From positions 488,138 to 552,137 of the forward strand of contig JALHLU010000001.1 in assembly GCA_022844345.1 (NCBI GenBank): a stretch of 64,000 bases of DNA, in the 5' to 3' direction. Of the stretch, positions 12,997 through 64,000 are shown piece by piece. Source of the stretch: Hyphomonadaceae bacterium. GTDB lineage: Bacteria > Pseudomonadota > Alphaproteobacteria > Caulobacterales > Hyphomonadaceae. Numbering within the stretch: the stretch's first letter is position 1; the number at the start of each line of letters is the position of its first letter. The notes beneath the pieces are model-generated. The model saw only the letters and a list, made by a program, of their open reading frames with translations. It was not told the DNA's origin and made no database searches. The position numbers were made by a program, and so were the translations under genes.

Positions 12997-13851
12997 CTAT
13001 TGCTGCGTCTGGCCCTGTGTATTGTTTTCCTGGCCGCCTTGATTCTGAGACTGCACCTGCATCTGGCCGATGTCGACCGAGGCGCTAAGCCGCTCCTTCG
13101 ACCCGCCGAGCACATTGCCCCGGATCGGGGCGGCGTCGGCCGCATCAAGGCCGCAGCCGAGGCGGACATAGCGGTCGGTAGGACACAAACGGTTGGCCGG
13201 ATCGAACCCGACCCAGCCGATATCGGGCACGAACGCTTCCGCCCAGGCGTGCGTTTCGGTGGGTTTCTCCTCAAGGGCGAGCAGGTATCCGACAACATAG
13301 CGTGCGGGAACTCGCAAGCTGCGGGCCGCGGCGAGGAAGACATGGGCGTGGTCCTGGCACACGCCCTGCCCGGCCTTCAGCGCCTGGGCGGCAGTGGTGT
13401 GCGAGACGGTGGAACCCGGCTTGTATTCGATGGCGTCGGCGACGGCGTTGAACAGGCTGTGCAGACGATCAAGCGGTGTTGCGCCCGAGACGCCCGCCGC
13501 CAGCGCGTCGATCTTCTTGTCGGTTTCGGTGAGAGGGGTTGTGCGGAGGAAGACTGCGGGGCGAACAGCCTCGCGCAGGCCGCGCACCACGCCGGCGGTA
13601 TCCTGCGTCTCGATCTCGCCTTCGGCCACGACTGCGATTTCGTCTCCCGCGCCATGGCAGGTCCAGATCGCTTCGCGGTCGGCGGTCGCCGTGGTGAGAA
13701 GGGCCTGCAGCGGCTGGCCGTTTACCGACACGGTCCACGCATGCACGCGCTGGCCATCGAAGGATGGCGGGAAGAGCCGGACGCGAAGCGCGCACCGCTC
13801 CGCAGGCGGATCGTAGGAGTAGGTCGTGGCGTGGCGGATTGTGAGACGCAT
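12997..13851 (-). CDS. Transglutaminase-like cysteine protease, locus 1
   Basis: 284 aa with an N-terminal beta domain (MRLTIRHATTYSYDPPAE, the bacterial transglutaminase-like N-terminal region) and a transglutaminase core. The catalytic triad is visible: Cys in GQGVCQDHAH (about 165), His in ETHAWAEAF (about 200) and Asp in GFDPAN (about 215). The C-terminus is a Gln/Asn-rich tail. No signal peptide. In this operon context such proteins are thought to hydrolyse or form isopeptide bonds on peptides handled by the ATP-grasp partner; this is from literature on the family, not visible here. Confidence 0.92.
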   Translation of the reverse strand: MRLTIRHATTYSYDPPAERCALRVRLFPPSFDGQRVHAWTVSVNGQPLQALLTTATADREAIWTCHGAGDEIAVVAEGEIETQDTAGVVRGLREAVRPAVFLRTTPLTETDKKIDALAAGVSGATPLDRLHSLFNAVADAIEYKPGSTVSHTTAAQALKAGQGVCQDHAHVFLAAARSLRVPARYVVGYLLALEEKPTETHAWAEAFVPDIGWVGFDPANRLCPTDRYVRLGCGLDAADAAPIRGNVLGGSKERLSASVDIGQMQVQSQNQGGQENNTQGQTQQ

Positions 13852-13868
13852 GAAACTTCGACCGGACC

Positions 13869-14798
13869 CTAGAAGTGATACGCCTTGCTGATTTCGGACG
13901 ACAGGCGCCGCGTCGTTCCGATGGCGTCTGATACGAACTCGTGAAGCCCGCTCTGGAACAGCTCCTCGATGCCGATCCTGTCGAGACGTTCGACCATCTC
14001 GCTGGCGACCAGCTGCGGCGAGCTCTTTTCGCCGTAGAGATCGGCAAGATCATCAAGGAAGCGCTTGATCGACCGGTAGCAGTAGGACACCGAGCGCGGG
14101 AATATCCCGTTGAGAATGAGGAAGTCGGCAATGCCCCAGGGCGTGTAGTCGCCTTTGTAGACGTGGTGATAGGCGCGCAGGGCCGAGGTGGCGCGCAGCA
14201 CGCTGGTCCACTGGTGATAATCGCGGCCGCCGCCGACCACATCGGTTTCGGGCAGCAGCACATAGTATTTCACGTCGAGCAGGCGAAGGGTCATGTCGGC
14301 GCGTTCGATCAGCCCGCCCATGCGCAGGAAGTAGTAGCCGTCATTGCGCAGCAGCGAGATTTCCGAGGCGCCGCGGAACGCCGCCGTGCGGTTTTTCGTC
14401 CACTCGAGCAGGGTCGGCAGATTCTTGAGCGCGGTCTCGGCGTCCATCTGGCCGAGCTGACGCCAGCCGTCGTTGAGGGCTTCCCACATGTCCTGGGTCA
14501 GCGCCGTGCGGATAGCGCGGCCATTGGCTCGGGCCGAGTTGAGGCATGAGCGGATCGAGGAGGCATTGTCCGGATCGAGCAGAAGGCGTTGCACGACGGC
14601 GGAGGCGTTTAGCCGCTCCTCGCCCGCGATGTCGGGCGCCGAACCGGAAGCTGCGGCGACCGAGCGCCATTCCTCCATCTCGTTCGAGCCGGGCAGCATC
14701 GCCATGCGATAGCCCATCTCGATCAGGCGCGCGGTCGCATCCGCACGCTCCATGTAGCGGCCCATCCAGAACAGGTTTTCTGCGGTGCGGCTCAGCAT
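13869..14798 (-). CDS. Alpha-E domain protein, locus 1
   Basis: 309 aa, almost entirely helical. The Alpha-E family mark is the N-terminal RTAENLFWMGRYMERAD, and later ALTQDMWEALNDGW, RMGGLIERADMTLRLLDVKYY and SALRAYHHVYKG occur. Alpha-E domains accompany circularly permuted ATP-grasp ligases and are thought to act as partner or regulatory subunits. In locus 2 of this window the same domain is fused to the ligase (52717-55116), which supports a direct partnership. It starts 5 bp after the ligase gene. Confidence 0.93.
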   Translation of the reverse strand: MLSRTAENLFWMGRYMERADATARLIEMGYRMAMLPGSNEMEEWRSVAAASGSAPDIAGEERLNASAVVQRLLLDPDNASSIRSCLNSARANGRAIRTALTQDMWEALNDGWRQLGQMDAETALKNLPTLLEWTKNRTAAFRGASEISLLRNDGYYFLRMGGLIERADMTLRLLDVKYYVLLPETDVVGGGRDYHQWTSVLRATSALRAYHHVYKGDYTPWGIADFLILNGIFPRSVSYCYRSIKRFLDDLADLYGEKSSPQLVASEMVERLDRIGIEELFQSGLHEFVSDAIGTTRRLSSEISKAYHF

Positions 14799-14802
14799 GG
14801 CA

Positions 14803-16209
14803 TCAATCCGCCAATATCCATGTGTCCTTCACCCCGCCGCCCTGGGAGGAGTTCACGACGAGCGAGCCCTTCTTCAGCGCGACCCGCGTGAGGCCGCCGG
14901 GCGTCAGGCGGATTTCCTTGCCGACGAGGCAGTAGGGACGGAAGTCGACGTGGCGATCCTCGATGCCCGCCTCACCAAGGATCGGCGCGGTGGAGAGGTC
15001 GAGCGTCGGCTGGGCGATGAACTCGGACGGGTTCGCCTTGATCTTGGCGCGGAAGGCCTCGATCTCCTTCTTCGATGCGTGCGGGCCGATCAGCATGCCA
15101 TAGCCGCCGGAGCCGTGGACGCGCTTGATGACGAGGTCCTTCAGGTTGTCGAGCACATATTTGAGATCGTCGGGCGCAGCACAGCGCCAGGTCTGCACGT
15201 TTTCGAGGATCGGCTTTTCGCCGAGATAGAATTTGATCATGTCCGGCACGAATACATAGATCGCCTTGTCGTCGGCGACGCCCGCGCCGGGGGCCGAGCA
15301 CAGCGTGACGCCGCCCGAACGATAGACATTGAACAGGCCCGGCACGCCCAGCAGCGAATCCGCCTTGAAGGTGAGCGGGTCGATATAGGTGTCGTCGATC
15401 CGGCGGTAGATCACGTCCACCCGCTGGGGTCCGCGCGTGGTGCGCATCCAGCACAGGCCGTTCTCCACAAACAGATCCTGAGGTTCGACCAGTTCGATGC
15501 CCATCAGGTCGGCGAGGAAGGAGTGCTCGTAATAGGCCGAGTTGAGCGAGCCGGGCGTCAGCAGAACGACCGTGGGGTCATCATCGCACTTGATCGGGGC
15601 GACTTCCTCGAGCGTCTTCTTGAGCTGGCTCGGATAGCTGTCAACGCTTTCGACGATGCCGGCATGGAAGAGCTCCGGGAACATGCGCATCATGATCTCG
15701 CGGTTCTCGAGCATGTAGGACACGCCCGACGGGGTCCGGCAGTTGTCTTCCAGCACCTGGAACCTGTCGCCATCGGTGCGGACAATATCCACGCCGACGA
15801 TGTGGCTGTAGACGCGGCCCGGCGGGTCGACGCCGATCATTTCCGGCAGGAAGGCTTCGTTCTGGTAGACCAGCTCTTCCGGGATGACGCCGGCGCGCAG
15901 GATCTCGCCGCGATGATAGACGTCATACAGGAAGGCGTTGAGGGCGCGGGAGCGCTGCTTGATGCCGCGCGAAAGCTTGCGCCATTCCGAGGCGCCGAAG
16001 ACGCGGGGGATGAGGTCGAACGGGATGAGGCGCTCGGGGTCGCCGCCCTCGCCATAGACGGCGAAGGTGATGCCGATCTTGCGGAATATGGCCTCGGCCT
16101 CGCTCTGGCGCAGGGCGAGGCGGTCAATTCCGGTGGCGTTGATCCACTCGGACACCTTTTCATAGGGGGCCCGGATCGAACGGTCGTCGGAGAACATTTC
16201 GTTGAACAT
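14803..16209 (-). CDS. Circularly permuted ATP-grasp ligase, locus 1
   Basis: 468 aa. It belongs to the CP_ATPgrasp family (also DUF404/DUF407), predicted COOH-NH2 ligases. Recognisable blocks are FNAFLYDVYHRGEILRAGVIP-like (NAFLYDVYHRGEIL), GRVYSHIVGVDIVR, FQVLEDNCRTPSGVSYMLENR, LLTPGSLNSAYYEHSFLADLMGI split over 15 residues, and VIKRVHGSGGYGMLIG near the C-terminus. LEDN and KRVHGSGGYG are the expected metal- and ATP-contact regions. First gene of the four-gene locus, facing a divergent PAP2 gene across 282 bp. Confidence 0.93.
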   Translation of the reverse strand: MFNEMFSDDRSIRAPYEKVSEWINATGIDRLALRQSEAEAIFRKIGITFAVYGEGGDPERLIPFDLIPRVFGASEWRKLSRGIKQRSRALNAFLYDVYHRGEILRAGVIPEELVYQNEAFLPEMIGVDPPGRVYSHIVGVDIVRTDGDRFQVLEDNCRTPSGVSYMLENREIMMRMFPELFHAGIVESVDSYPSQLKKTLEEVAPIKCDDDPTVVLLTPGSLNSAYYEHSFLADLMGIELVEPQDLFVENGLCWMRTTRGPQRVDVIYRRIDDTYIDPLTFKADSLLGVPGLFNVYRSGGVTLCSAPGAGVADDKAIYVFVPDMIKFYLGEKPILENVQTWRCAAPDDLKYVLDNLKDLVIKRVHGSGGYGMLIGPHASKKEIEAFRAKIKANPSEFIAQPTLDLSTAPILGEAGIEDRHVDFRPYCLVGKEIRLTPGGLTRVALKKGSLVVNSSQGGGVKDTWILAD

Positions 16210-49250: not shown

Positions 49251-52200
49251 ATGTCGATCAAGGCCAGCATCTATCACCTTACCCATTACATGTATGACCA
49301 GCCGGTGGTGCTGGGGCCGCAAGTCATAAGACTGCGGCCGGCGCCGCATTCGCGGACGCGGGTGATCTCGCATTCGCTGAAAGTGTCACCCGACAAGCAT
49401 TTCGTGAATTACCAGCAGGACCTCTATGGCAACTGGCTGGCGCGGTATGTCTTCCCCGAGCCGGTGCGCGAGCTGAAGATCGAGGTCGATCTCGTCGCCG
49501 ACATGACCGTCTACAACCCGTTCGACTTCTTCGTGGAGGAGAGCGCGGAGACATGGCCCTTCGAGTATCCGCCGGAGATTGCGGATGACCTCGCAATCTA
49601 TCGCTCGACCGAGCCGATGGGGCCGCACCTCAAGAAATTCCTTGCGGGCATTCCCAAGGGCCGGCTGCGTACCGTCGATTTCATCGTGATGCTGAACTCG
49701 GCCGTGGCGAAGGCGGTGGGGTATGTGATCCGGATGGAGCCGGGCGTGCAGACGCCGGAGGAGACATTCGAGAGCGGCAAGGGATCGTGCCGGGATTCAA
49801 GCTGGCTTCTGGTGCAGGCTGCGCGGCATCTGGGATTCGCGGCGCGGTTTGTGTCGGGCTACCTGATCCAGTTGAAGCCCGACCTGGTGGCGCTGGATGG
49901 GCCGCCGGGGACGAGCGTCGATTTCACTGACCTGCATGCGTGGTGCGAGGTCTACCTCCCAGGTGCGGGGTGGATCGGCCTTGATCCGACATCGGGGCTG
50001 CTGACGGGCGAGAGCCACATCCCGCTGTCGGCTACGCCGCACTATCGGAACGCTGCGCCGATTTCGGGCGGGTATACCGGCACGGCCAATGTGTCGTTCG
50101 CGTTCGACATGAAGGTGAAGCGCGTGGCCGAGCATCCGCGCATCACCAAGCCTTTTTCCGACGAGAGTTGGGCGGCGCTCGATGCGCTGGGCGAGAAGGT
50201 GGATGCGGCGCTGAAGGCGGGCGATGTGCGCCTGACGATGGGCGGCGAGCCGACGTTTGTTTCGATCGACGACTTTGAAGCGGACGAATGGAACACGGGC
50301 GCGGACGGGCCGACCAAGCGCAAGCTGGCGGACAAGCTGATCCAGCGGCTGCGAGACCGCTTCGCGCCCGGCGGATTCCTGCATTATGGGCAGGGCAAGT
50401 GGTACCCCGGAGAGACGCTGCCGCGCTGGACGTTCTCGCTTTACTGGCGGCGCGACGGGTTGCCGATCTGGCACGATCCTGAGCTGGTCGCAGGCGAGAA
50501 TGGCGCGGGCACGGCGACGAAAGTCGAGGCCGAGCAATTGCTGCAGGCGATGGCGGAGGAGTTGGGCGTTGGCGCGGAGATGGTGATTCCCGCCTTTGAA
50601 GACCCCGCGAACTGGATTCTCAAGGAGGGAAATCTTCCGGAGAATGTGACGCCGGAGAATTCGAAGCTGAAAGACCCCGAAGAACGCAACCGCATCGCGC
50701 GCGTGTTCGAGCGGGGCCTGACCGAACCGAGCGGCTATGTTCTGCCGATCCAGCGCTGGCAAGCCAAGGCGAGCACAAAGGCGAAGGTCGGCAAGGGCGC
50801 GGCAAAGAAAAAGAGCGCCGTGGCGGAGACGCCGGGTCGTGTTGCGACCAAGGGACGGTGGAAGTCCGAGAAGTGGAAGCTGCGGCGCGGGCACATGTTC
50901 CTCGCGCCGGGCGACAGCCCCGTTGGTTATCGCCTGCCGCTCGAGTCGTTGACGTGGATTCCGCCCCAGCTTTATCCGCACGTGATTCCGGCTGATCCGA
51001 GCGAGGAGCGTGGGCCGCTGCCAGACTATGCGGCTTTCATCGGCACGTCGCAGGGCTATGCGCTGCAAGGCAATCCGCCGGCTGAGCAGGCGCGGGCACA
51101 GTTCACGGCGAGCGAGGGCGGGCGGCAGCAGGTTCAGGAGCAGTCGTTCTCCGAGGTCGCGGGCTCTGTGCGCACGGCTATGTCGGTGGAGGCGCGCGAG
51201 GGGCGGCTGTGCGTGTTCATGCCGCCGGTGGAGCGCATCGAGGACTATCTCGAGCTGGTGGCGGCGGCGGAAGCGGCGGCGAAACAGATCGGGCTGCCGG
51301 TGCACATCGAAGGGTATGCCCCGCCACACGACCCGCGCATGAATGTGATGCGCGTGACACCGGACCCGGGCGTGATCGAGGTGAACGTGCATCCGGCCAC
51401 GAACTGGCGCGAGTGCGTGGACATAACCACGACGCTCTATGATGAGGCGCGGCAGTGCCGGCTTGGCTGCGACAAGTTCATGATCGACGGGCGGCATACC
51501 GGCACGGGCGGCGGCAACCATGTGGTCGTCGGAGGAGCAACGCCGAATGACTCGCCCTTCCTGCGGCGGCCGGATGTTCTGAAGAGCCTGCTGCTGCTGT
51601 GGCAGAAGCGGCCGTCGCTATCGTATCTGTTCTCGGGCATGTTCATCGGGCCGACGAGCCAGGCGCCACGCATCGACGAGGCGCGGCATGATGCGCTCTA
51701 CGAACTCGAGATCGCGCTGTCGCAGATCCACACGCCAGGCGCAGGACCGGGTGGCGATCCTTACACGCCGCCATGGCTGGTGGACCGGCTGCTGCGCAAC
51801 CTGCTGGTGGACGTGTCGGGCAATACGCACCGCACGGAAATCTGCATCGACAAGCTGTTCTCGCCGGACGGACCGACGGGGCGCCTCGGCCTCGTCGAGT
51901 TCCGCGGCTTCGAGATGCCGCCAGATCCGCGCATGAGCCTGGCGCAACAAGTGCTGGTGCGGGCGATCATCGCGCGGATGTGGAAGTCTCCGATCACGGG
52001 CAATCTCGTGCGGTGGGGAACGACGCTGCATGACAGGTTCATGCTGCCGCATTTCGTGTGGCAGGATTTCCTCGACCTGCTGCGCGATCTTTCGGCGCAT
52101 GGTTTCGAGCTGCGGCCAGAATGGTTCGAGGCGCAGCTGGAATTCCGCTTCCCGTTCTGCGGGGAGATCGAGGTAGAAGGCGTGAAGCTGGAAGTGCGGC

Positions 52201-52694
52201 AGGCGCTTGAGCCGTGGCATGTACTGGGCGAGACCGGCGCGATTGGGGGGACGGTGCGTTATGCGGACTCCTCCGCCGAGCGCGTGCAGCTGAAGCTGAC
52301 GGCGGCCGATCCGGGGCGCTATCGCGTGGCAGCCAATCGCCGGCCGGTGCCGCTGCAACAGGTGGGCAATGGCGAGGCGGTCGCGGGGGTGCGTTACAAG
52401 GCGTGGAAACCGCCGCTGTCGCTTCACCCGGTGCTGCCGACCAACGTGCCGCTGGTCTTCGATGTGTTCGATACCTGGTCGGGCCGGGCCATCGGGGGAT
52501 GCGTCTATCACGTGGCCCACCCCGGGGGGCGGAGCTACGACACCTTCCCGGTCAACGGCAACGAGGCTGAGGCGCGGCGTCTGGCCCGGTTTGAACCCCA
52601 TGGACATTCTCCGGGGATGTATCAGCTTGGCGTTGAGTCGCCGCACCCGGAGTTTCCGCATACTCTGGACCTGAGGCGGGCGCCGGGTATCTAG
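49251..52694 (+). CDS. Transglutaminase-DUF2126 protein, locus 2
   Basis: 1147 aa. N-terminal beta domain ([20 protein letters not shown]), transglutaminase core with Cys in [16 protein letters not shown] (about 178), His in [12 protein letters not shown] (about 228) and Asp in GLDPTSGL (about 244), then the long DUF2126 region (about 290-1140). DUF2126 is predicted to be a glutamine-synthetase/GCS-like COOH-NH2 ligase. Conserved parts here are [49 protein letters not shown] and [21 protein letters not shown] (split). First gene of a three-gene locus without an Anbu peptidase. Confidence 0.92.
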
Positions 52695-52716
52695 GCGGGA
52701 TTCCAAAGGGGCTGAC

Positions 52717-55116
52717 GTGTCGTCCGCGAAACCACAAACCGGGCCAGATGCGGTCACGCGGCTGCTGGCGGGCTATCGCCCCCTGCCCGGCGTGTCCGAT
52801 GAGCTGCTTGATGCTGCGGGAGCCGTGAGGCCAGCCTGGCGCGGCTTCATCAGCCATGTGGCGGCGATGGCGCCGGAGGAAATCTCTCACCGCATCTCGC
52901 AGGGCGACCAGTATCTTCGGGATGCCGGCGTGTTCTTCCGCCAGTATGGCGACGGGCAAGCCGAACGTGCCTGGCCGCTGAGCCATATCCCCGTCATCGT
53001 CCATGAGAGCGAGTGGGGGACGATTACCGAAGGGCTGATCCAGCGCGCCGACCTGCTCGAGAGCATCGTGGCTGACCTTTATGGCAGCCAGCGCCTTGTG
53101 ATGGAGGGGCATCTTCCGGCGTCCCTGGTGGCGATGTCGCCGGAATGGCTGCGGCCACTGGTGGGCGTGCGGCCCCGCTCGGGCCAGTTCCTTCACTTCA
53201 TCGCGTTCGAGATTGCGCGCGGGCCAGACGGCCAGTGGTGGGTGCTGGGCGATCGCGTGCAGGCGCCATCGGGCGCGGGTTTCGCGCTGGAGAACCGCGT
53301 GGCGACGGCCCGCGTCTTTCCGGACCACTATGCGCGGGCGAACATCCACCGGCTTGCCGGATTCTTCCGCGCATTTCGTGACATGATGAACGATCTGCGC
53401 GGCGACACGGACAGCCGGGTTGGCATCCTGACTCCCGGGCGCCTCAACGACACTTATTTCGAGCATGCCTACATCGCGCGCTATCTTGGCTTCATGCTGC
53501 TGGAGGGCGAGGACCTGACGGTCGAGAACGGCCAGGTGATGGTGCGCACGATTGCGGGGCTGGAGCCGGTGAGCGTGCTGTGGCGGCGGATTGATGCAGC
53601 GTTCGCCGATCCGCTGGAGCTGAACGAGCAGTCGCGGCTTGGTGTGCCGGGGCTGGTGGAGGCGGTGCGGCGCGGGCAGCTGGCGGTTGTGAACGCGCTG
53701 GGGACCGGCATACTGGAGACGCGCGCGCTGCTGGCGTTCATGCCGCGCATTGCGCAGGCGCTGCTGGACGAGCCGCTGAAGCTTCCGAACATCGCAACGT
53801 GGTGGTGTGGACAGGAATCGGAGCGCGCGCACGTTCTGGCTCATGCCGACCGCATGATGATTGGCGAGGCGCTATCGACGCGCATGCTGTTTGATTCGGA
53901 AGACCGCACGCACCTTGGCGCGACACTTGCCGAACGCCAGCAGAGCCTGAGCGACATGATCGACCGGCGTGGGCCGATGCTGGTGGGACAGGAAGCGGTG
54001 ACGCTTTCGACGACGCCCGCGATGGTGGATGGCGCGCTGACGCCGCGGCCGATGAGCTTGCGCGTTTTTCTTGCCCGCACGCCCCGCGGATGGCGCGCGA
54101 TGCCCGGGGGCTATGCCCGCATCGGTCGCTCGCAGGACGCAACGGCCATTGCGATGCAGCGCGGCGGATCCGTGGCGGATGTCTGGGTGCTGTCGGACAA
54201 GCCGGTGAGGAACGAGACGCTGCTGCCCTCGCCCGCCGCCCCCTATAAGCGTTCGCGGCGCGTCGAGCTTCCCAGCCGCGCGGCGGACAATCTTTTCTGG
54301 ATGGGACGCTATGTCGAGCGGGCGGAAGGCCTGATCCGGATGCTGCGCGCATGGCATGTGCGCCTGGCGGAGGCGGGGCGGGACGACACGCCATTGCTGA
54401 CGCATGTGCGGAGTTTTCCGGGGTTTCATGACGCCGATCCGACCAGCGAGGCGCCGGGGGCCCTGCTCGCCGCCATCAGCGCGGCGACAGCAAGCGCGAG
54501 CCAGGTGCGCGACCGGTTTTCCATCGACGGATGGAACGCGCTGAACGATCTTGCGGCCAGCGCGCAGGCGGAGCTGGGCAATGTTTCGCCGGGCCATGCA
54601 TCTGCGCGGGCGCTGGGTCGGCTGCTACATCGGGTCACCGGATTCTCGGGCCTCGTGCATGAGAACATGTACAGGTTTGCCGGATGGCGCTTCCTGTCGA
54701 TCGGACGGTCGCTGGAAAGGGCCGTCAACATGTGCGAGGCGCTGGCCTGGTTTGCGGCCGAGGCGGCGCCAGAAGGCGCGCTCGATCTTGTCGTCGAGGT
54801 GGGCGACAGCGTACTGACGCACCGGCGACTCTATGCGGTGGCGACCGGCCGCTCGACCGTGATTGACCTGCTCGCGTGCGACGCCAACAATCCGCGTTCG
54901 GTGCTCTACCAGTTGGCGGAGATGAAGGAGCAAGTGAGCTTCCTGCCCGGCGCGCAGGAGGCCGATGGCATGTCCGAGCTGTCGCGGGCGATCCTGAAGC
55001 TGCATGCGGAGATAGCGGTGGCGGCCCCTGAAGACATCGATACGGCGCGGCTGATGGATCTTCGCGCCGACCTGTGGCGGGCGTCAGACTTGCTGACGCA
55101 GGCCTATCTGCGCTGA
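52717..55116 (+). CDS. Fusion of circularly permuted ATP-grasp ligase and Alpha-E domain, locus 2
   Basis: 799 aa from a GTG at 52717. Residues about 1-510 are CP_ATPgrasp: GDQYLRDAGVFFRQYGDG, WVLGDRVQAPSGAGFALENR, LTPGRLNDTYFEHAYIARYLG and LEGEDLTVENGQ. Residues about 518-799 are Alpha-E: RAADNLFWMGRYVERAEGLI, DGWNALNDLAASAQAELG and GRSLERAVNMCEALAW. The second half aligns with the separate Alpha-E protein of locus 1 (13869-14798). The gene starts 22 bp after the DUF2126 gene; the transglutaminase follows after 4 bp. Confidence 0.93.
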   Translation: MSSAKPQTGPDAVTRLLAGYRPLPGVSDELLDAAGAVRPAWRGFISHVAAMAPEEISHRISQGDQYLRDAGVFFRQYGDGQAERAWPLSHIPVIVHESEWGTITEGLIQRADLLESIVADLYGSQRLVMEGHLPASLVAMSPEWLRPLVGVRPRSGQFLHFIAFEIARGPDGQWWVLGDRVQAPSGAGFALENRVATARVFPDHYARANIHRLAGFFRAFRDMMNDLRGDTDSRVGILTPGRLNDTYFEHAYIARYLGFMLLEGEDLTVENGQVMVRTIAGLEPVSVLWRRIDAAFADPLELNEQSRLGVPGLVEAVRRGQLAVVNALGTGILETRALLAFMPRIAQALLDEPLKLPNIATWWCGQESERAHVLAHADRMMIGEALSTRMLFDSEDRTHLGATLAERQQSLSDMIDRRGPMLVGQEAVTLSTTPAMVDGALTPRPMSLRVFLARTPRGWRAMPGGYARIGRSQDATAIAMQRGGSVADVWVLSDKPVRNETLLPSPAAPYKRSRRVELPSRAADNLFWMGRYVERAEGLIRMLRAWHVRLAEAGRDDTPLLTHVRSFPGFHDADPTSEAPGALLAAISAATASASQVRDRFSIDGWNALNDLAASAQAELGNVSPGHASARALGRLLHRVTGFSGLVHENMYRFAGWRFLSIGRSLERAVNMCEALAWFAAEAAPEGALDLVVEVGDSVLTHRRLYAVATGRSTVIDLLACDANNPRSVLYQLAEMKEQVSFLPGAQEADGMSELSRAILKLHAEIAVAAPEDIDTARLMDLRADLWRASDLLTQAYLR

Positions 55117-55120
55117 TGAC

Positions 55121-56005
55121 ATGATCTACGATATCCGGCTCACCATCGAGTATGTCTATCGCGCGCCGGTCGCGGGGGGGCGGCATGTCCTCTACATGAC
55201 CCCGTCACAGGCGAGCTCGCAGCGGGTGATCACGTCATTGCTGGACATCACGCCGGCGCCGGACGAGCGCATCGCCATGACGGACTTCTTCGGCAACACA
55301 GCTGTCGAAGTCGCGTTTCGGGCGCCGCATGCGGAGATCGCGTTCAGGCTGCGCGCGCGCGTCGAGCGTATTGCGCCGGAGGATAAGCCGGATATTTCGC
55401 CCGCGTTGCCGGCGCTGGCGAGCGAGCTTGCCGGCTTGCGGTCGCTGGCGGCGGACTCCCCGCATCACTTCCTTGCGGACTCGCCGCGTGTGAGAGCGCA
55501 GCCCGAGTTCGAGGCCTATGCGCGTGCACAGGTCGCGGACGACAAGCAGACGGTGTGCGCCATCGTTGCGTCTATCGGGCAAGCTCTGGACCGTGACCTG
55601 ACGTTCGATCCGGGATCGACCAATGTTGACACGCCGCCCGAGGAGGCCTTCGCGGCGCGCCATGGCGTCTGTCAGGATTTCACCCACATCATGATCGCAT
55701 GTCTGCGGTCGATCGGTATTCCGGCGGGCTATGTGAGCGGCTTCCTGCGGACGCGGCCACCGCCTGGCGAAGAGAGGCTGGAAGGCGCCGACGCGATGCA
55801 CGCCTGGGTACGCGCCTGGTGTGGCGGGGCGACGGGCTGGGTCGAGTATGATCCGACCAATGGTATCTGGGTGAAAGACCAGCATATCGCCGTTGCGCAT
55901 GGGCGCGACTATGGTGATGTCGCCCCGGTTCGCGGCGTGGTGCGGACGTCAGGCGGGCAAACAAGCAAGCAGGCCGTAGATGTCATGCCGCTGGGCGAAA
56001 CCTGA
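55121..56005 (+). CDS. Transglutaminase-like cysteine protease, locus 2
   Basis: 294 aa. Beta-rich N-terminus (MIYDIRLTIEYVYRAPVAGG, as in the bacterial transglutaminase-like N-terminal domain), then the core with Cys in RHGVCQDFTHIMIACLRS (about 182), His in DAMHAWVRAWCGG (about 226) and Asp in EYDPTNG (about 244). The C-terminus carries IAVAHGRDYGDVAPVRGVV, a conserved end of this subfamily. No signal peptide. It is the last gene of locus 2 and is convergent with the exported-protein gene. Confidence 0.92.
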   Translation: MIYDIRLTIEYVYRAPVAGGRHVLYMTPSQASSQRVITSLLDITPAPDERIAMTDFFGNTAVEVAFRAPHAEIAFRLRARVERIAPEDKPDISPALPALASELAGLRSLAADSPHHFLADSPRVRAQPEFEAYARAQVADDKQTVCAIVASIGQALDRDLTFDPGSTNVDTPPEEAFAARHGVCQDFTHIMIACLRSIGIPAGYVSGFLRTRPPPGEERLEGADAMHAWVRAWCGGATGWVEYDPTNGIWVKDQHIAVAHGRDYGDVAPVRGVVRTSGGQTSKQAVDVMPLGET

Positions 56006-56484: not shown

Positions 56485-57200
56485 CGCGCCGCTCCCCTCT
56501 TCTCGTATGAACCACTATCACTTTGTAGCAGCAGGCCAAACGCCGCGAGGCGGAGGGCCACTTCAGGGTTTTCCGTGCGATACTGCACCGACCATTGGGC
56601 GGCGCCGGAGTTTGCAAGATCCAGCACGAGCTGGGCGCTCTCGCCATCGCGTTCGCCGTTCATCACAAGACGGCCGACCGGCCCGTGGCAGGCGGCAGCG
56701 CCCGACATCATGGGACCGTTTACGCCGAGGACCTCGCCGCTTCGCATGAGCGTGTCGCTTTCGAGGATGCCCTGGGCCGAGATGCAGGCGTCGCTGCCCA
56801 GCAGCACATCGACATTACGCAAGCTGGTTTGCCCGGGCAGGCGAAGCGTTTCACTGACTGGCAGACCCTGGAGGAGGAGTTCATCGGAGGTGAGGCGGCG
56901 TTCGCCATCCATACCGAGCTGAAGGCGGGCGGCTCCCGTAATGTCGCGGCCGGACAGGTCGATATCGGCGACGACGCGGCCAAACAGCAGATCAGCCGCA
57001 GAGACCCTGATGCCGACATCGCCGGCGTCGAGCTGGCCAATGCGCGCGCGCGTGAGCGTTGCATCCCAGATCGTTCCGCTGGCGCGGGCGAAGGACAGCC
57101 CGTCAGGCGTCGGCTGCAGGAAGGCCTGGGCGGGAGCAAAGGCGACAGCGCCACCCGCGAGCGCCAGACCGAACACGGCGACATGCCAGATCCTGATCAT
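56469..57200 (-). CDS. gspN: Type II secretion protein GspN
   Basis: 243 aa. Signal/anchor at the N-terminus (MIRIWHVAVFGLALAGGAVA), then beta-rich sequence with FARASGTIWDATLTRARIGQ and the Cys-containing ACISAQGILESDTLMRSGE region. GspN is an optional inner-membrane/periplasmic component of type II systems. The gene starts 4 bp before the gspM stop, and its end overlaps the next gene by 16 bp. The family is weakly conserved, so assignment also rests on position. Confidence 0.82.
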   Translation of the reverse strand: MIRIWHVAVFGLALAGGAVAFAPAQAFLQPTPDGLSFARASGTIWDATLTRARIGQLDAGDVGIRVSAADLLFGRVVADIDLSGRDITGAARLQLGMDGERRLTSDELLLQGLPVSETLRLPGQTSLRNVDVLLGSDACISAQGILESDTLMRSGEVLGVNGPMMSGAAACHGPVGRLVMNGERDGESAQLVLDLANSGAAQWSVQYRTENPEVALRLAAFGLLLQSDSGSYEKRGAARWLPF

Positions 57201-57679
57201 GTGCGCCTCGCCGCGAGACTTGCATCGCCCTGGACGAGATCGCCCTCGCCGGCGCGCACGATGGTGATGCGGGTGACCGCAAAGCCCGCGCGCTCGACGG
57301 CGTCGATCCATCCATAGATGCTGCGCGAGGCGGCGGGCTGAAAGGATATGCGGACGCCGGTGGGGCCGTCGGGCTCGATACGCGTGGGCGACAGGCCGAA
57401 CTGGGCGGCGATGGCGGCGGCGGCTCCGCGCGGCGTGCCGTCGGAGGCGGCCGGCGCGACTTGCCCAGCGCCGTCTGTAGGAGCCGTGCGGAGGCGGGCG
57501 ACGTCGTCGCGCAGCTGCACGGCGCTGGCGAGGTCGGCGGCGGCGGCGGTCCGATAGCTGTTGGCGGCCTGCCATCCAAACCAAAACAGGCCGAGAAGTG
57601 CGACGAGTACGCCGACCTGGAGCAGGAGCTGCTCGCGTGGCGTGCGCGAGGCAAACCAGGATGCGAGTGCGCCCATCAT
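57197..57679 (-). CDS. gspM: Type II secretion protein GspM
   Basis: 160 aa. One transmembrane helix near 20-40 (QLLLQVGVLVALLGLFWFG) preceded by the S-R-T-P-R-E-Q motif usual in GspM, then a periplasmic ferredoxin-like domain. GspM pairs with GspL in the inner-membrane assembly platform. It overlaps gspL by 4 bp and gspN by 4 bp. Confidence 0.88.
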   Translation of the reverse strand: MMGALASWFASRTPREQLLLQVGVLVALLGLFWFGWQAANSYRTAAAADLASAVQLRDDVARLRTAPTDGAGQVAPAASDGTPRGAAAAIAAQFGLSPTRIEPDGPTGVRISFQPAASRSIYGWIDAVERAGFAVTRITIVRAGEGDLVQGDASLAARRT

Positions 57680-58893
57680 GCGCCTCCCATCGAAACGGAA
57701 ACCGAGGAGCGTCCGTCAATCGCCTGCATCGGACCGACATCAATCTGACCCGCGGCCTGGCGAAGGCCTTCGACGGCGGAATCCAGCTGGGGCTGCAACA
57801 GGCTGGAGAGACGGAGGTCAACTGTGCGCCCAGGCGCATCAAGGCGGACCTCGTCGAGCTGGACGTCCGGATGAAGTTGCAGAACGTCGGAGATCAGCGG
57901 ATTGGCGGCGATGACGGGGTTAGCGGCCGGCCGCTTCATGGCGTTGAGGGCGGCTGTCACCTGTGCACGGAGATTGTTGACGCGTTTCACCTCCGGGCGC
58001 GCCTCACGAAACGCTTTCTCCGACGCCGCATGGACTGCCTCGGCCGAGGCAGCGTCGCGCATGCCGTCCCAGGTGGTTATGCCGATCTGGAGCAGGCCCA
58101 GGGCCACAGCGAGGCCGGCGGCCAGTCCCCACGCTGCCAATGGAGACGCGGAGGCCTGCGACCGTTCGGACGAAGCGCCTGCAAGGTCAGGCGCGAGCGC
58201 CGGCCGCCTTGCCGCAAGCCGGGCCAGGCGGATGGGTGGGTCTTCAGCGTCCGTCTCCGTCACGTCGACCCGGAGGGAGCCAAGCTGAGGGGCGAGGTCA
58301 GCGCGTGTCCAGCCCTGCAGGCGGACGGCGTCGATGGTGGCGCCAAGCTGAGCCATCCACTGACCCATCACGGCTGGAGCGAGGCCTGAATCCATCGTGA
58401 AACCGCCAAGTTCGCCGGCGGAAACCAGAGTGCGGTCTCCCAGTCGCAGCACTTCGATGCCGCCACGGTCCGGCGCAAGGAGCGAACAGTCGAGATAGAC
58501 CGCCAGCGGCTTGAGACGCATGGCGGCGCAGCGGTCCAGCCAGGCCGTCAGACGCCCGCGCGACATCGCCGCGGCGAGGCGGCCATCGTCCTCCCCGGCG
58601 CCGCCGACGGCGAACACTGTGTCGACGGTGTCCGTTGCGAGACTATCCTTGAACAGGTGGGCCGCAGCGGCGCGGGCCTGGGCTGCGGAACGTGTTGGCG
58701 TCGCGAGGCGGCGCAGCTGCGCGTCGAAGCCGGGGATGACGAGGAGGCACTCGCCCTGGGCGCCGCGGATGGCGTCGCCCGAAGCGACCATGCCGCTTGC
58801 TGCGACGCCAGTCGCACCCGCCTGAAGACGCACCCAGGCCATCGGCTCTTCGGGCGTGTTTCCGGCGATCAGGACAATCACGGCGGTGCTCAC
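57676..58893 (-). CDS. gspL: Type II secretion protein GspL
   Basis: 405 aa from the GTG at 58893, which overlaps the gspK stop by 4 bp; longer in-frame starts read into gspK. The cytoplasmic actin-like part has LLVIPGFDAQLRRLATP and VFAVGGAGEDD, there is a helix at about 275-295 (AWGLAAGLAVALGLLQIGI), and a periplasmic ferredoxin-like domain follows. GspL links the GspE ATPase to GspM. Confidence 0.85.
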   Translation of the reverse strand: MSTAVIVLIAGNTPEEPMAWVRLQAGATGVAASGMVASGDAIRGAQGECLLVIPGFDAQLRRLATPTRSAAQARAAAAHLFKDSLATDTVDTVFAVGGAGEDDGRLAAAMSRGRLTAWLDRCAAMRLKPLAVYLDCSLLAPDRGGIEVLRLGDRTLVSAGELGGFTMDSGLAPAVMGQWMAQLGATIDAVRLQGWTRADLAPQLGSLRVDVTETDAEDPPIRLARLAARRPALAPDLAGASSERSQASASPLAAWGLAAGLAVALGLLQIGITTWDGMRDAASAEAVHAASEKAFREARPEVKRVNNLRAQVTAALNAMKRPAANPVIAANPLISDVLQLHPDVQLDEVRLDAPGRTVDLRLSSLLQPQLDSAVEGLRQAAGQIDVGPMQAIDGRSSVSVSMGGA

Positions 58894-59906
58894 AGCAGGT
58901 TGTTCGCGACGCGCGCGCCGAAGACTCGCCGCACGACACGCCCGCGCCCGGCGGCGGTATCCACGAGGGCGACACTTGTTTCTGTCACATCGCCGAAGTT
59001 GACCCTGATGCCGATCACATACCAACGCGACAGTTTTGTGAACATCGCGCGACTTTCGTCACTGAGTTGTATTGGGGCGATGCGGCGGTCTGCAAAGAAG
59101 GCGTCGAGGGTGGACCATCCGCCAAGCGGACGCTCGCGGATCAATGCCTCGGCCGAGGCCAGCGGCAGTGCAGGCCCGAATATGACTGCCAGCAGCGGCG
59201 CCTGGTCGGGACGGAGCGTGTTGATCGCAATCACGTTAGCCGACGTGGTGGGTCGTACGCAGGCAAGGCGGGCGAGCCGCGAGGTAACGCTCGCATCGAA
59301 GCCAGCGATGGAGCGCATCTCGCTGGCGTCGCCGAGAAGGTGGTTGGCAGGCAGCGCGACGGCAGAACCGCCGCCATAGGCTTCGTCCTCGGCGCCGCCA
59401 AGGCCGGGGACGGTGTCGCTGTCGATCCAGTCGGCCAGCGAGGCCGCAAGTGTGCGATGGGAGCCGATGCCAAGCAGCGCCAGCAGACGCGAGAAACGCG
59501 CCTGTCCATCTTCGCTGGCGACCAGCGGACCGCCCTCCTCCTGCCTGACGAGGCTGTTGAGGTTGAAGCAGTTGTCGCCGCTAGCCACGGTGACCTGCAT
59601 CGAGCCATTGTCGAGCGGCAGGGTAAGCGTGCGATCGAGCCAGTCTGACGGGTTGACCGCTTCCGTTGCGGTGGCGGTTGCGGCCTGGTCGATGCGGCGG
59701 ATGGCGTAGGCTTCAGCGCCGAGAAGATACCAGCGGGTCTGGTCCATCTGCGCCTGGTTGCCGGTGCGTTGCGTGCTGAAGCGGGCGGCTTCCACGACGG
59801 AGATCGCGAGCACGCTCATCACAGCAACCACGACAAGGACGGCAGCGAGGGCTGCGCCGCTTTCGCCGTCGGGGGAAGGTCGGGGGGCGCGCGCCATTTC
59901 TGTCAA
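58890..59906 (-). CDS. gspK: Type II secretion minor pseudopilin GspK
   Basis: 338 aa from a TTG overlapping the gspJ stop, or 335 aa from an ATG three codons later. The prepilin-like N-terminus is ESGAALAAVLVVVAVMSVLA, the typical GspK helix in which Glu5 is replaced. A large globular domain follows with SYSLASLADWIDSD-like (AASLADWIDSDTVPG) and IALNTLRPDQ-like (IAINTLRPDQAPLL) calcium-domain segments. GspK caps the pseudopilus tip. Confidence 0.92.
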   Translation of the reverse strand: MTEMARAPRPSPDGESGAALAAVLVVVAVMSVLAISVVEAARFSTQRTGNQAQMDQTRWYLLGAEAYAIRRIDQAATATATEAVNPSDWLDRTLTLPLDNGSMQVTVASGDNCFNLNSLVRQEEGGPLVASEDGQARFSRLLALLGIGSHRTLAASLADWIDSDTVPGLGGAEDEAYGGGSAVALPANHLLGDASEMRSIAGFDASVTSRLARLACVRPTTSANVIAINTLRPDQAPLLAVIFGPALPLASAEALIRERPLGGWSTLDAFFADRRIAPIQLSDESRAMFTKLSRWYVIGIRVNFGDVTETSVALVDTAAGRGRVVRRVFGARVANNLL

Positions 59907-60499
59907 AGCCCCGTCAGCGCTTGAAGCCGCACGCGTCCATAGCGCGGAAGCGTGACTTCGATGGCGACGGCCTGTGGGACCATGGACATGGATGTCGGCC
60001 AGTCTTGACGCCAGCCAAGCCCGTCGTGGAATCCGAACGCGACATCTCCTGCTGAGGACAGGACCGTGCGATCGCGCGTGACGGCATTGGGGCCGGGATC
60101 GATGGCGGCGCGAGTGGAACGGACGAAGCTGCCTGTCTCATCGAGGCTGTAGCTTACGACGGTCAGGGACGTGGATATCTGATCTTCCGATCCGGGCTCG
60201 CCCTGGGCGCGGACAAACGACATGGTGGGACGAACGCCGCCAACGGCGTGGAAGGCGAACGGCGGGCGGCCGGGATCGCGCGTGACGCGCGGGGCAATCT
60301 GGGCAAGGTCCGCCGCCAGCAGGGCGCGGGCCGACTGGAGTTCACGCAGGCTATCCTGCGCTTCCTCGACATCGGCCTGGGCATAGAGGGTCTGCGAGAG
60401 AAGCAGCACGCCGCCGCCAGCGACCAGCGCAAAGATGAAGAGCGAGACGAGGGCTTCGACAAGCGTGAAGCCAGCGTCGGATGGCGCAGCTGACTTCAT
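59903..60499 (-). CDS. gspJ: Type II secretion minor pseudopilin GspJ
   Basis: 198 aa. Prepilin cleavage site and helix in SDAGFTLVEALVSLFIFALV (cut after Gly, Glu at +5). The C-terminal beta domain has VVSYSLDETGSFVRSTRAAI and AVAIEVTLPRYGRVRLQALT. Overlaps gspI by 4 bp and gspK by 4 bp. Confidence 0.92.
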   Translation of the reverse strand: MKSAAPSDAGFTLVEALVSLFIFALVAGGGVLLLSQTLYAQADVEEAQDSLRELQSARALLAADLAQIAPRVTRDPGRPPFAFHAVGGVRPTMSFVRAQGEPGSEDQISTSLTVVSYSLDETGSFVRSTRAAIDPGPNAVTRDRTVLSSAGDVAFGFHDGLGWRQDWPTSMSMVPQAVAIEVTLPRYGRVRLQALTGL

Positions 60500-60894
60500 G
60501 GCGCGACGCCTCCGGTGAGGCGGAAAGCGGACACTTCGGCGGAGGGCGCCGCCTCGCCGGCGAGGAAGGCGGCGGCTTCGATGCGAACACTTTCGGGATC
60601 ACCTGTGGAGAACACATCCATACGCCAGCGCCAGCTACGGCCGGCCAGCTCAACCTCGCCTTCCGTGGCGCCGAGCGATGGGGGCGTTCGCGCCGCCATG
60701 ACGTCGATCAGCGCGTTCTCGATGACAATTGCCCCGAGCGCGCGCGTTTCGACCCGCGAGTAGGTTTCCACCGATTGCGCCTGCATGGCTATGAGCGCGA
60801 CAGCCGCAAGCGCGAACACAAAGAGTGCGACCAGCGTTTCGACGATGGTGATGCCGGCGTCGGCAGGCGCTTGATCAGGAGACACGTTCGACAC
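60496..60894 (-). CDS. gspI: Type II secretion minor pseudopilin GspI
   Basis: 132 aa from the GTG at 60894 (or the GTG at 60885). Prepilin site PADAG-ITIVETLVALFVFAL with Glu at +5, then ALIAMQAQSVETYSRVETRAL and a short C-terminal beta domain with SWRWRMDVFSTGDPESVRIE. The start overlaps the end of gspH, so the real start is uncertain by three codons. Confidence 0.88.
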   Translation of the reverse strand: MSNVSPDQAPADAGITIVETLVALFVFALAAVALIAMQAQSVETYSRVETRALGAIVIENALIDVMAARTPPSLGATEGEVELAGRSWRWRMDVFSTGDPESVRIEAAAFLAGEAAPSAEVSAFRLTGGVAP

Positions 60895-61375
60895 GAACTT
60901 CTCCCTGTTCGTCGATTTCCACGCGCCAGCCACTGCCGGCCTCACCGAAGCGGAGACGCATAGATGTGGAGCCGCCAAGAGGATCGAAACGTGCAAGACG
61001 GCGGGTTTCGCTGTCGCGTTCCGCAGGTTCGGGCATTTCAATCTGAGGGGCTTCATCGGCTGGCCAGGGCTGGAAGCCGAGCGAGGGCACAGTCTCGAGC
61101 CGGCGCCAGCCATCCTCGTCGAGGCGCTCGAAATGGTAGCCCTCATTGGTGGCGACGAAAGCCAGCTGCCGGTTCATGAGGATGCTCTGGTCGCTGGCGA
61201 GGTCGATACGCGCGGCCAGGCGTTCCAGCGCAGAACGGAGACGCGAGTCGGCGCCGGGCGACATGAGCAGCACAGAACTGGCGACCAGCGCGATGATCGC
61301 CAGCGTGGCCATCACCTCGACCAGCGTGAAGCCGGCCGAGCGGGCGCCGCTATCGTGCGTTGACGACGTCTGCAT
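60875..61375 (-). CDS. gspH: Type II secretion minor pseudopilin GspH
   Basis: 166 aa from the ATG at 61375. Prepilin site SAGFTLVEVMATLAIIALVA, then ADSRLRSALERLAARIDLAS and GYHFERLDEDGWRRLE. GspH is the first minor pseudopilin after the major GspG. The start overlaps the gspG end by 26 bp and the stop overlaps gspI. Confidence 0.88.
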   Translation of the reverse strand: MQTSSTHDSGARSAGFTLVEVMATLAIIALVASSVLLMSPGADSRLRSALERLAARIDLASDQSILMNRQLAFVATNEGYHFERLDEDGWRRLETVPSLGFQPWPADEAPQIEMPEPAERDSETRRLARFDPLGGSTSMRLRFGEAGSGWRVEIDEQGEVRVERVS

Positions 61376-61820
61376 CAAGCCCCTCGCCGCCGACCTTGCC
61401 GTCGGCCCCCATCGAATAGAGGTCGTAAGGGCTGTTCTCGCCGGGCGCGACATACTGGTATGGCCGGTTCCACGGATCTTTGGGCAGCTGGCGAATGAAT
61501 GGCTGGCGTTCGGCGCCAAGCGCAGTGGCCGGCGCAATCAGCGTTTCGAGCCCCTCTTCGGTGGTGGGAAAGCGGGCGGCTTCGAGATGGAAAAGCGTCA
61601 GCGCCTGGTCGATCGCGGCGATGTCAGCCTTCGCTTTTTCCACGCGCGCCTTGTCCTGGCTTGGGAGGACGTTGATGGCGACGATGGCGGTGATGAGGCC
61701 GATGATCAGGATCACGACCATCATCTCGACCAGCGTGACGCCAGCCTCGGGATGGAGGCGCTGGGTCGAGGCGCGAGGGGCGGCATCGGTGTGATCAGGA
61801 AGCACGGGCATCTCCATCAT
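61350..61820 (-). CDS. gspG: Type II secretion major pseudopilin GspG
   Basis: 156 aa. Prepilin site EAGVTLVEMMVVILIIGLIT (cut after Gly), then PSQDKARVEKAKADIAAID, YPTT-type RFPTTEEGLETLI and the C-terminal calcium-site region DPWNRPYQYVAPGENSPYD. The unusually long leader before the cleavage site is about 26 residues. GspG forms the shaft of the pseudopilus. Confidence 0.95.
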   Translation of the reverse strand: MMEMPVLPDHTDAAPRASTQRLHPEAGVTLVEMMVVILIIGLITAIVAINVLPSQDKARVEKAKADIAAIDQALTLFHLEAARFPTTEEGLETLIAPATALGAERQPFIRQLPKDPWNRPYQYVAPGENSPYDLYSMGADGKVGGEGLDADVVNAR

Positions 61821-63043
61821 CCTGCTGCAAGCTGGTTGAGCTGCAGGATCGGCAGCATGATTGCCAGCACGATGCTGGCGACAATTGCGCCCATCAGGAC
61901 GATGATGAGCGGTTCAATGAGGCTGAGCGCTGCCTGCACAAAACCCTCGAATTCCTCGTCGAGATGGTTGGCGGCGCGGTGAAGCATATCTGGCAGTTCG
62001 CCGGAATTCTCGCCGCCGACGGCCATGTAGACGACGACGGGCGGAATGAGCGCAGACTTGCGCATGGCGCCGGAGAGCGGCTCGCCCTCCTGGATGCGAT
62101 CGCCCATGGCGTCAATGGCGCGGGCGAATGCGCGGTTGGAGGCGGAGTCACGCGAGGCGCGGACGCTTTCGAGAACCGGAAGACCGCTCGACGACAACAT
62201 CGACACGGAGCGAACGAAGCGGCTGGTGCTGACGGCGCGGATCCACTTGCCGAGCAGCGGCAGGCGCATCATCGCCGCATCGAAGCCAAGCCGGATATGT
62301 GGCTGGCGTAGCGCCGTGCGCGCCGCCACGAAGGCCCCGACGATGGCGATGAGCAGCACGGGCCAGTAACGCGCAAGCCCTTCCGAGACGCCGATCAGGA
62401 TCTGCGTCACCAGCGGCAGTTCGCCATGGAAGGCCTTGAACTGTTCGACGAGCGCCGGAACGACGAAGATCATCAAACAACCAACAACGGCGGCGGCGAC
62501 CGTCATGAGCGCGGCCGGATAGATCATCGCGGTGGCGATCTTCGAGCGCAGGGCGTGTTCGCGCTGGAGATAGTCCGCAAGGCGAGTGAGCACGGGGGCA
62601 AGATTGCCGGATCGTTCGCCGCCGGCGATGGCGGCGCGGTAGGCGCCCGGGAAGCTGGACTTGTGGCGGGCCATGGCGTCGGCCAGCCGCATGCCTTCCT
62701 GGATGCCTGAGCGGAGATCCGCCATAATGTGGCGGGCGGCAGACTGTTCCTGCTGGGCCGCGAGCATGCCGAGCGCTTCGTCGACCGAGATGGCGGCGCC
62801 GACCAGCGTGGCGAGCTGGCGCGTGACGAGCAGACGCGTCTTGTGACTGAGCGAACCGCGCGTACGGACCGGCGCTGCCTTCTGTGTCCGGGCGGCGGGC
62901 TGGGCGCCGGTGGGCGAGACCTCAACGGGATAGAGCTTGCGGCCAGCGAGCGCGGCATGGGCCGCGCGTTCATCGCGGGCGTCGATTCCGCCCCGCCGCT
63001 CGCGGCCTTCGAGGTCGATGGCGACATAGGAGTAGCGGGCCAT
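61817..63043 (-). CDS. gspF: Type II secretion inner-membrane protein GspF
   Basis: 408 aa. The two repeated T2SSF domains are seen at about 75-195 and 275-400, with FPGAYRAAIAGGERSGNLAP in the first and PPVVVYMAVGGENSGELPDM in the second. Three transmembrane helices. GspF is the platform protein that moves the pseudopilus. Overlaps gspG by 4 bp. Confidence 0.95.
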   Translation of the reverse strand: MARYSYVAIDLEGRERRGGIDARDERAAHAALAGRKLYPVEVSPTGAQPAARTQKAAPVRTRGSLSHKTRLLVTRQLATLVGAAISVDEALGMLAAQQEQSAARHIMADLRSGIQEGMRLADAMARHKSSFPGAYRAAIAGGERSGNLAPVLTRLADYLQREHALRSKIATAMIYPAALMTVAAAVVGCLMIFVVPALVEQFKAFHGELPLVTQILIGVSEGLARYWPVLLIAIVGAFVAARTALRQPHIRLGFDAAMMRLPLLGKWIRAVSTSRFVRSVSMLSSSGLPVLESVRASRDSASNRAFARAIDAMGDRIQEGEPLSGAMRKSALIPPVVVYMAVGGENSGELPDMLHRAANHLDEEFEGFVQAALSLIEPLIIVLMGAIVASIVLAIMLPILQLNQLAAG

Positions 63044-63046
63044 GGC

Positions 63047-64000
63047 CTATCCCGCCTCCCCCGCGCCTGCGCTGCGCAGGACGTCGCTGAGGGACGTGAC
63101 GCCAGCAGCGACACAGGAAAGGCCGCTGGCGAAGAGGCGTTCCGAAGTGCGGAAGGCGTGGGCGGCCATCGCTTCTTCGGTGGCGTTCGCGTGGATCAGA
63201 CGGCGGATCTCATCATCGACCACCATGCATTCGTAAAGACCGATGCGCCCGACATAGCCCGAACCACTGCACTCGGGGCAGCCGCCGCCTTCGAAAGCTT
63301 CGGGCTTTGCGCCGATCGATGCGAGGAGCGCCGCTTCGCGCTCGCCAATCACGGCCGGCCGCTTGCACGCTTCGCAGAGACGGCGGACGAGACGCTGGGC
63401 GACGACGGTGCGCAGGGTGGACGCCAGCAGGTAGGGTTCGATGCCCATGTCGCGCAGGCGCGTGATGGCGGCCACTGCATCGTTGGTGTGCACGGTCGAG
63501 AAGACGAGGTGGCCGGTGAGCGAGGCCTGCACGGCGATCTGGGCGGTTTCGGCGTCGCGAATTTCGCCGACCATAACGACATCGGGGTCCTGGCGCAGGA
63601 TGGCGCGGAGGCCCGCGGCAAACGTCATCCCGATGCGGCTGTTCACCTGGGTCTGGCCAATGCCTTCGATCGCGTACTCGATCGGATCTTCGACCGTGAG
63701 GATGTTTCGGCTGCGATCGTTGAGCAGGTTGAGGGCGGCGTAAAGCGTCGTTGTCTTGCCCGAGCCTGTGGGTCCCGTGACGAGCACGATGCCGTTGGGA
63801 GCCGACATGGCGGCCTGGAAGCGCGCTAGCGTGGCCGGCGCCATCCCGAGACCGTCCAGGCTGCGCAGGCTCTGGTCCTTGTCGAGGATACGCATCACCA
63901 CGCGCTCGCCATGGCGGGAGGGAAGCGTGGAGACGCGGACGTCGACGCCGCGCCCGCCGAGGGTGAGCGAGATGCGGCCGTCCTGCGGCAAGCGTTTCTC
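63047..64000 (-). CDS. gspE: Type II secretion ATPase GspE (partial, cut by window end)
   Basis: The 3' part of the gene, about 318 codons. Visible: [40 protein letters not shown] (Walker A), the acidic Asp box in [32 protein letters not shown] (Walker B), [18 protein letters not shown] (His box) and the zinc-binding CEACKRP and [17 protein letters not shown]. The 5' end lies outside the window. GspC, GspD and the prepilin peptidase are not in the window. Confidence 0.95.

Follow-up and report, generated by a model that had tools for sequence, protein, structure and literature searches.

The 64,000-nucleotide stretch of a Hyphomonadaceae bacterium genome analysed here (GenBank assembly GCA_022844345.1, contig JALHLU010000001.1, positions 488,138 to 552,137, hereafter the window) carries two gene sets encoding ATP-grasp, Alpha-E and transglutaminase (TG) proteins. 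Locus B (49251-56005) encodes a transglutaminase-DUF2126 protein, a circularly permuted (CP) ATP-grasp fused to Alpha-E (FUS) and a further transglutaminase. Locus A (12211-16209, - strand), 33 kb away on the opposite strand, encodes an unfused CP-ATP-grasp (AG), an unfused Alpha-E (AE), a transglutaminase and the peptidase Anbu. The genes are as follows.

49251-52694, + strand: transglutaminase-DUF2126 protein, open reading frame of 1147 aa (Pfam)
52717-55116, + strand: CP-ATP-grasp-Alpha-E fusion (FUS), open reading frame of 799 aa with a GTG start, ATP-grasp part degenerate (Pfam)
55121-56005, + strand: stand-alone transglutaminase TG2, open reading frame of 294 aa, Cys184-His227-Asp244
14803-16209, - strand: intact unfused CP-ATP-grasp of locus A, AG1 (Pfam, motif alignment)
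13869-14798, - strand: unfused Alpha-E of locus A, AE1 (Pfam)
12997-13851, - strand: transglutaminase of locus A, TG1, Cys165-His201-Asp217 (Pfam)
12211-12945, - strand: Anbu peptidase of locus A, Thr at position 2 (Pfam Proteasome family, 26.9 bits)

In the transglutaminase-DUF2126 protein, Bact_transglu_N and Transglut_core were placed by Pfam at residues 6-246 and DUF2126 (PF09899) at residues 279-1142 (1306.9 bits, profile positions 3-826 of 826). The N-terminal part of FUS matched CP_ATPgrasp_2 at residues 92-469 (447.3 bits), with 447.3 and 283.2 bits against the two circularly permuted ATP-grasp profiles (PF14403/PF04174), and its C-terminal part matched Alpha-E (PF04168) at residues 518-798 (203.1 bits), while TG2 combined Bact_transglu_N with Transglut_core. 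The intergenic gaps of locus B are only 22 and 4 bases, suggesting that its three genes form one transcription unit. None of the three proteins matched a peptidase family in Pfam or NCBIfam, and NCBIfam gave no names for them; peptide cleavage is, however, a possible activity of transglutaminase-fold enzymes themselves. The three genes, their domains, their placement 33 kb from the Anbu locus and the lack of a peptidase match are as given in a preliminary description of this DNA. Locus B is without Anbu, so the four-gene set of the Anbu operon (ATP-grasp, Alpha-E, transglutaminase, Anbu) is found in locus A alone. The name Anbu rests on length and operon context, no Anbu-specific model in Pfam or NCBIfam having been matched, and Thr2 is presumed to be the nucleophile once Met is removed.

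Across a class sample of 144 genomes, unfused Alpha-E was found in 58, FUS in 23, DUF2126 in 23, FUS and DUF2126 together in 19, and Anbu in 46. Unfused Alpha-E was present in 23/23 FUS genomes and 23/23 DUF2126 genomes compared with 35/121 of the rest (Fisher 3e-11 each, values that overstate independence, as the samples partly overlap and the genomes are related). All 23 FUS of this sample were read in sequence, G196 merely as a contig-end fragment, and the unfused partner was read in 13 genomes and taken from a second, higher-scoring Alpha-E match in 10; inspection of G144 and G150 showed their Alpha-E to be unfused. Among 61 relatives, unfused Alpha-E was observed in all 16 FUS genomes (15 read in sequence, G005 cut by a contig end), and G013, with three Alpha-E fragments on three contigs, was left unclassified. 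Of 31 named DUF2126 genomes, hand-picked from 80 named loci, 28 had one fused and one unfused Alpha-E and three had the unfused form only, the unfused form being present in 28/28 FUS genomes. In a phylum sample, where fused and unfused forms were told apart only through the Alpha-E count per genome, DUF2126 was found among the matches listed in 96/299 genomes, with Alpha-E in 96/96 and at least two Alpha-E in 91. The feature searched was Alpha-E, and an intact ATP-grasp beside unfused Alpha-E was confirmed wherever it was read (52 sequences). According to the preliminary description, its reading would be refuted by loci that are unrelated in function and never co-occur in other genomes; co-occurrence was found in both the relatives and the class sample. 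It is locus B that depends on the unfused ATP-grasp/Alpha-E pair, and Anbu is optional.

In the 61 relatives, the orders split AG-AE-TG-Anbu and DUF2126-FUS-TG were observed. In addition, a hybrid order with DUF2126 divergent beside AG-AE-Anbu, in which a separate transglutaminase was not found, was present at L063 (G016), L064 (G031), L065 (G025), L095 (G056), L098 (G060), L099 (G029), L100 (G021) and L102 (G036), where its place may be taken by the transglutaminase domain within the DUF2126 protein. DUF2126 lies beside TG-AG-AE, without Anbu at the locus, in G020 and G044; AG-AE-TG without Anbu was found in G038, G040, G045 and G053, and FUS-TG without DUF2126 in G053. The order DUF2126-FUS-TG was present in 69/80 named loci, the remaining ones being L122 (DUF2126-FUS near a contig end), nine with DUF2126 alone (four with less than 2.3 kb left downstream) and one cut locus, L155, which yielded no gene, open reading frames being required to have a stop codon. 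Both loci are contiguous as DUF2126-FUS-TG-AG-AE in G119, G125 and G232, FUS-TG-AG-AE runs up to the contig end in G196, and in Pseudooceanicola pacificus (L107) locus A and locus B are direct neighbours that diverge from a single intergenic region.

FUS and AG1 are 28% identical, and in their alignment FUS is without E154, N156, K315, K362, the SGGYG loop, H420, D422 and most of NSSQGGG (AG1 numbering), the four key sites of the window's FUS being occupied by G, R, R and G. E154, N156, K315 and K362 were all kept in 52/52 unfused sequences, whereas, of the 104 fused sequences free of gaps at these sites, 97 have none of them and 7 have one; the fused set has 106 rows, from which L222 and a fragment of L243 (114 residues, full frame 811) were excluded because of gaps there. 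The SGGYG loop was whole in 51/52 unfused versus 0/106 fused sequences, E-x-N was intact in 0/106 fused sequences, and both lysines were gone from nearly all of them, with varied replacements. R170, E228, R269, R270, R424 and D462 were kept throughout the unfused set (52/52) and, depending on the residue, in 101 to 105 of the 106 fused rows. The roles of the kept residues, and of E-x-N, the two lysines and SGGYG in the ATP/Mg site, are presumably those of their counterparts in glutathione-synthetase structures. The CP-ATP-grasp of Methylobacillus flagellatus (PDB 3n6x) matched AG1 over residues 2-468 (E 1.8e-189) and has the same E-x-N, lysine and SGGYG motifs, unlike FUS. The Alpha-E part of FUS retains both its profile match and its two ER motifs (E534R535 and E667R668, against E17R18 and E165R166 in AE1), so the earlier statement that the motifs match between the loci holds for Alpha-E but not for the ATP-grasp. 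By sequence, FUS is a predicted pseudoenzyme under constraint.

The FUS model (mean predicted local distance difference test, pLDDT, 87.9) matched 3n6x with Z 38.2 and a root-mean-square deviation (rmsd) of 3.0 over 439 aligned residues at 27% identity, and glutathione synthetases with Z ~23. For the Alpha-E part, helical rows at Z ~10 were rejected as a fold match, being within the chance level for helical bundles. A phylogeny of the ATP-grasp and Alpha-E pairs, proposed earlier as a check on paralogy, was run by quick maximum likelihood, with long branches flagged in each tree. Fused and unfused forms lie each on their own side of one branch with support 100 in both the ATP-grasp tree (40 fused, 36 unfused) and the Alpha-E tree (34 fused, 51 unfused). 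The two forms are old paralogues; their split predates the genus and is compatible with a single fusion event.

The best reading is that the unfused ATP-grasp/Alpha-E pair, rather than the peptidase, is the constant link of the system. Because locus B depends on this pair and Anbu is optional, we lean, by a modest degree, towards loci A and B being two parts of one peptide/isopeptide ligation system. Two parallel pathways that run independently, each equipped with a ligase, an Alpha-E and a transglutaminase, would fit the age and clear separation of the paralogues, DUF2126 as locus B's own ligase, and the two separate transcription units; these lie 33 kb apart here, a spacing that is not general, as G017, G019 and G026 have ~235 to 560 kb between the loci. 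This alternative is nevertheless unlikely, as the ATP-grasp of locus B is without its ATP/Mg-site residues, locus B was not found without unfused Alpha-E in the relatives, the named genomes or the class sample, and the loci are contiguous in some genomes. Of the two related but distinct pathways suggested earlier, the relatedness is borne out by the old paralogy and by the restriction of locus B to genomes with unfused Alpha-E; the distinctness is not favoured, because of that dependence and the contiguous loci.

Certain enzymes that look like pseudoenzymes have proved active, and the fused ATP-grasp could likewise have kept ligase activity through a remodelled nucleotide site. Its fold is intact, and several residues in common with the active form are kept. 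The loss of E-x-N and SGGYG from every fused sequence, together with the varied replacement of the two lysines in nearly all, makes an active fused ligase improbable. For the ATP-grasp of the Yersinia operon, phosphate release from ATP is reported in the available text of PMC6376114.

Anbu was not found in 7/23 FUS and 6/23 DUF2126 genomes of the class sample (10 FUS genomes if G119, G123 and G132, whose Anbu-like form is distant, are taken as lacking it), and it was present in 20 and not found in 11 of the 31 named genomes, Sinorhizobium fredii, which carries both loci, being among those without. Within the 58 unfused-Alpha-E genomes, Anbu was unassociated with FUS (Fisher p 0.34) or DUF2126 (p 0.75). 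In these counts, a match in G093 (2.9e-4, 46 residues) was excluded, and a partial match in G150 and nine distant full-length forms were included. No gene replacing Anbu was found at 16 split loci of Anbu-less genomes, where no non-core neighbour was common to more than 4 of the other 15. In favour of locus B borrowing the Anbu of locus A, with the shared peptidase as the link, are the 14 own-family genomes among the 16 FUS genomes of the relatives, all with Anbu (G045 and G053 being without), and the eight hybrid relatives, in which DUF2126 lies divergently beside AG-AE-Anbu. Such a link is slightly less probable still than an active fused ligase, given the genomes without Anbu, the lack of association and the lack of a common neighbour. 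One Anbu serving both loci, the other suggestion of the preliminary description, is thus possible in this genome but fails as a general link.

The distant, near-full-length Anbu-like form (E 1e-37 to 1e-42) was found in G104, G114, G119, G123, G132, G154, G179, G206 and G218 and is perhaps a separate subtype. Two Anbu matches each were observed in G082, G157, G199, G224 and G230. A solitary Anbu at L078:7046-7780 (G020:C9) is 68-69% identical to that of the window, and its usual partners were not found in the 15 kb analysed there.

That the fused gene is a decaying remnant, as its faster change than AG1 might suggest (76% versus 93% identity in the same genome pair), is very improbable in view of a ratio of nonsynonymous to synonymous substitution rates (dN/dS) of 0.07-0.19 against four same-genus genomes (two of them nearly identical to each other), which indicates purifying selection, and of long open frames and a gene order kept across the class.

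The Cys180-His229-Asp245 triad of the transglutaminase domain (PF01841) of the DUF2126 protein was present in 25/26 aligned sequences, the remaining one having a gap, and the Cys-His-Asp triad was present in 19/19 TG2 and 12/12 TG1 sequences. To judge from their sequences, the transglutaminase domains and DUF2126 look active. PF09899 is named a putative amidoligase in Pfam, and the DUF2126 model aligned, apart from the transglutaminase part, to glutamine synthetases with Z ~8-9.6 over 235-274 residues at rmsd 4-6, which is near the level that unrelated models often reach. A search of the PDB with a single DUF2126 sequence gave no match, and a profile search gave transglutaminase-like chains only. 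DUF2126 is a predicted amidoligase of putative glutamine-synthetase fold, and it is the likeliest ATP-dependent ligase of locus B. No paper naming 'DUF2126' was found in the open-access literature search. At L066:9222-12628 (G004), the DUF2126 gene lies in two overlapping frames of 731 and 404 aa, a natural split or an assembly error.

In the proposed one-system arrangement, the working ATP-grasp ligase would come from locus A, together with the partner Alpha-E, a transglutaminase and, as an optional part, Anbu. Locus B would contribute a second ligase, DUF2126, of glutamine-synthetase type and joined to a transglutaminase, along with another transglutaminase and the pseudo-ATP-grasp-Alpha-E. 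FUS would no longer use ATP but probably still holds whatever substrate or partner the active enzyme holds, R170, E228, R269, R270, R424 and D462 being common to both forms; towards the active ATP-grasp/Alpha-E, its role may be that of a scaffold or a regulatory subunit. The amide bond would be made by DUF2126, and the transglutaminase-fold domains would transfer or remove the product. The full form of this proposal is more tentative: locus B may be an obligate accessory module in which the pseudo-ATP-grasp-Alpha-E pairs with the active pair and hands the shared substrate to the DUF2126 ligase, giving an Anbu-independent two-ligase conjugation machine.

Several observations weigh against this proposal. 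Joint inheritance of a larger gene set could yield the co-occurrence, given the related genomes and overlapping samples. The module is divisible, FUS not having been found in 10/25 DUF2126 genomes of the relatives and 4/23 of the class sample, where DUF2126 was likewise not found in 4/23 FUS genomes. FUS evolves faster than AG1, the DUF2126 model is of moderate quality (pLDDT 72), and its Foldseek top 50 contained no glutamine synthetase. In a published test with the Yersinia bercovieri operon, Anbu used as bait did not interact specifically with any of the other three proteins (PMC6376114, available text).

In comparison with known systems, the architecture is largely described. Both Iyer et al. 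2009 and the Pfam text reportedly distinguish CP-ATP-grasps that are active from inactive ones, with Alpha-E fusions frequent among the latter, and mention a transglutaminase-COOH-NH2 ligase fusion. All domains and both loci reported here fall within the predicted peptide synthesis-modification system of Iyer et al. and the Anbu operon, with no difference in kind. What is added is the counts of motif loss, the co-occurrence with the unfused form, the dispensability of Anbu, and the contiguous and hybrid orders. PMC6376114 and PMC5666114, in the parts available, describe the Anbu operon and the peptide-tagging role predicted for it, both citing Iyer et al.; the role of the Anbu-associated system, predicted since 2009 to tag or modify peptides, is called unconfirmed in these passages of the 2017 papers.

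The gene names of Burkholderia cenocepacia I35_5080-5083 (DUF404/DUF407, DUF403, transglutaminase-like, large transglutaminase-like) match the set described here, and under nitrogen limitation an ntrC mutant showed log2 changes of -8.2, -9.4, -9.4 and -6.0 in these genes, according to the available part of PMC5491218. The large transglutaminase-like protein may, from its name alone, correspond to DUF2126; unlike in locus B, no fused ATP-grasp is named for that set in the same part. Nitrogen control, nitrate versus ammonium, is reported for P. putida PP_2685 and PP_2688 (PMC8050072, available part), and COG3484, a proteasome-type protease, is one of the sigma-54 targets predicted in PMC12316311 (available part). 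Upstream of DUF2126 (107 starts), AG1 (36) and FUS (92), the best scores of sigma-54-like sites were not above those of mononucleotide-shuffled sequence, and nitrogen control as in Burkholderia and Pseudomonas is unsupported here by this simple scan. RloABC of P. aeruginosa likewise combines an ATP-grasp, a transglutaminase-fold protein and a peptidase in one operon; it differs in its inactive membrane transglutaminase, secreted retropepsin-like peptidase and RimK-similar ATP-grasp, which are of other families (PMC12239564, available part).

In total, the genome of the window gave two matches to Alpha-E, one to DUF2126 and five to Transglut_core; the two extra Transglut_core matches are on a different contig, and the aligned parts of their frames share 27-36% identity with the transglutaminases of the window. 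Upstream of locus B are GNAT, carboxymuconolactone decarboxylase and cytochrome c families, and downstream, on the opposite strand, are the type II secretion families M, L, K, F and E (57197-63991, - strand). These flanking genes look unrelated to locus B.

By its sequence, FUS is a conserved dead ligase, found only in genomes that also have the live paralogue. If the unfused ATP-grasp/Alpha-E pair is the constant core of the system, experiments centred on Anbu have examined an optional part. If the two-ligase machine is real, its DUF2126 part would be carried by about a third of the sampled phylum genomes (96/299 among the matches listed).

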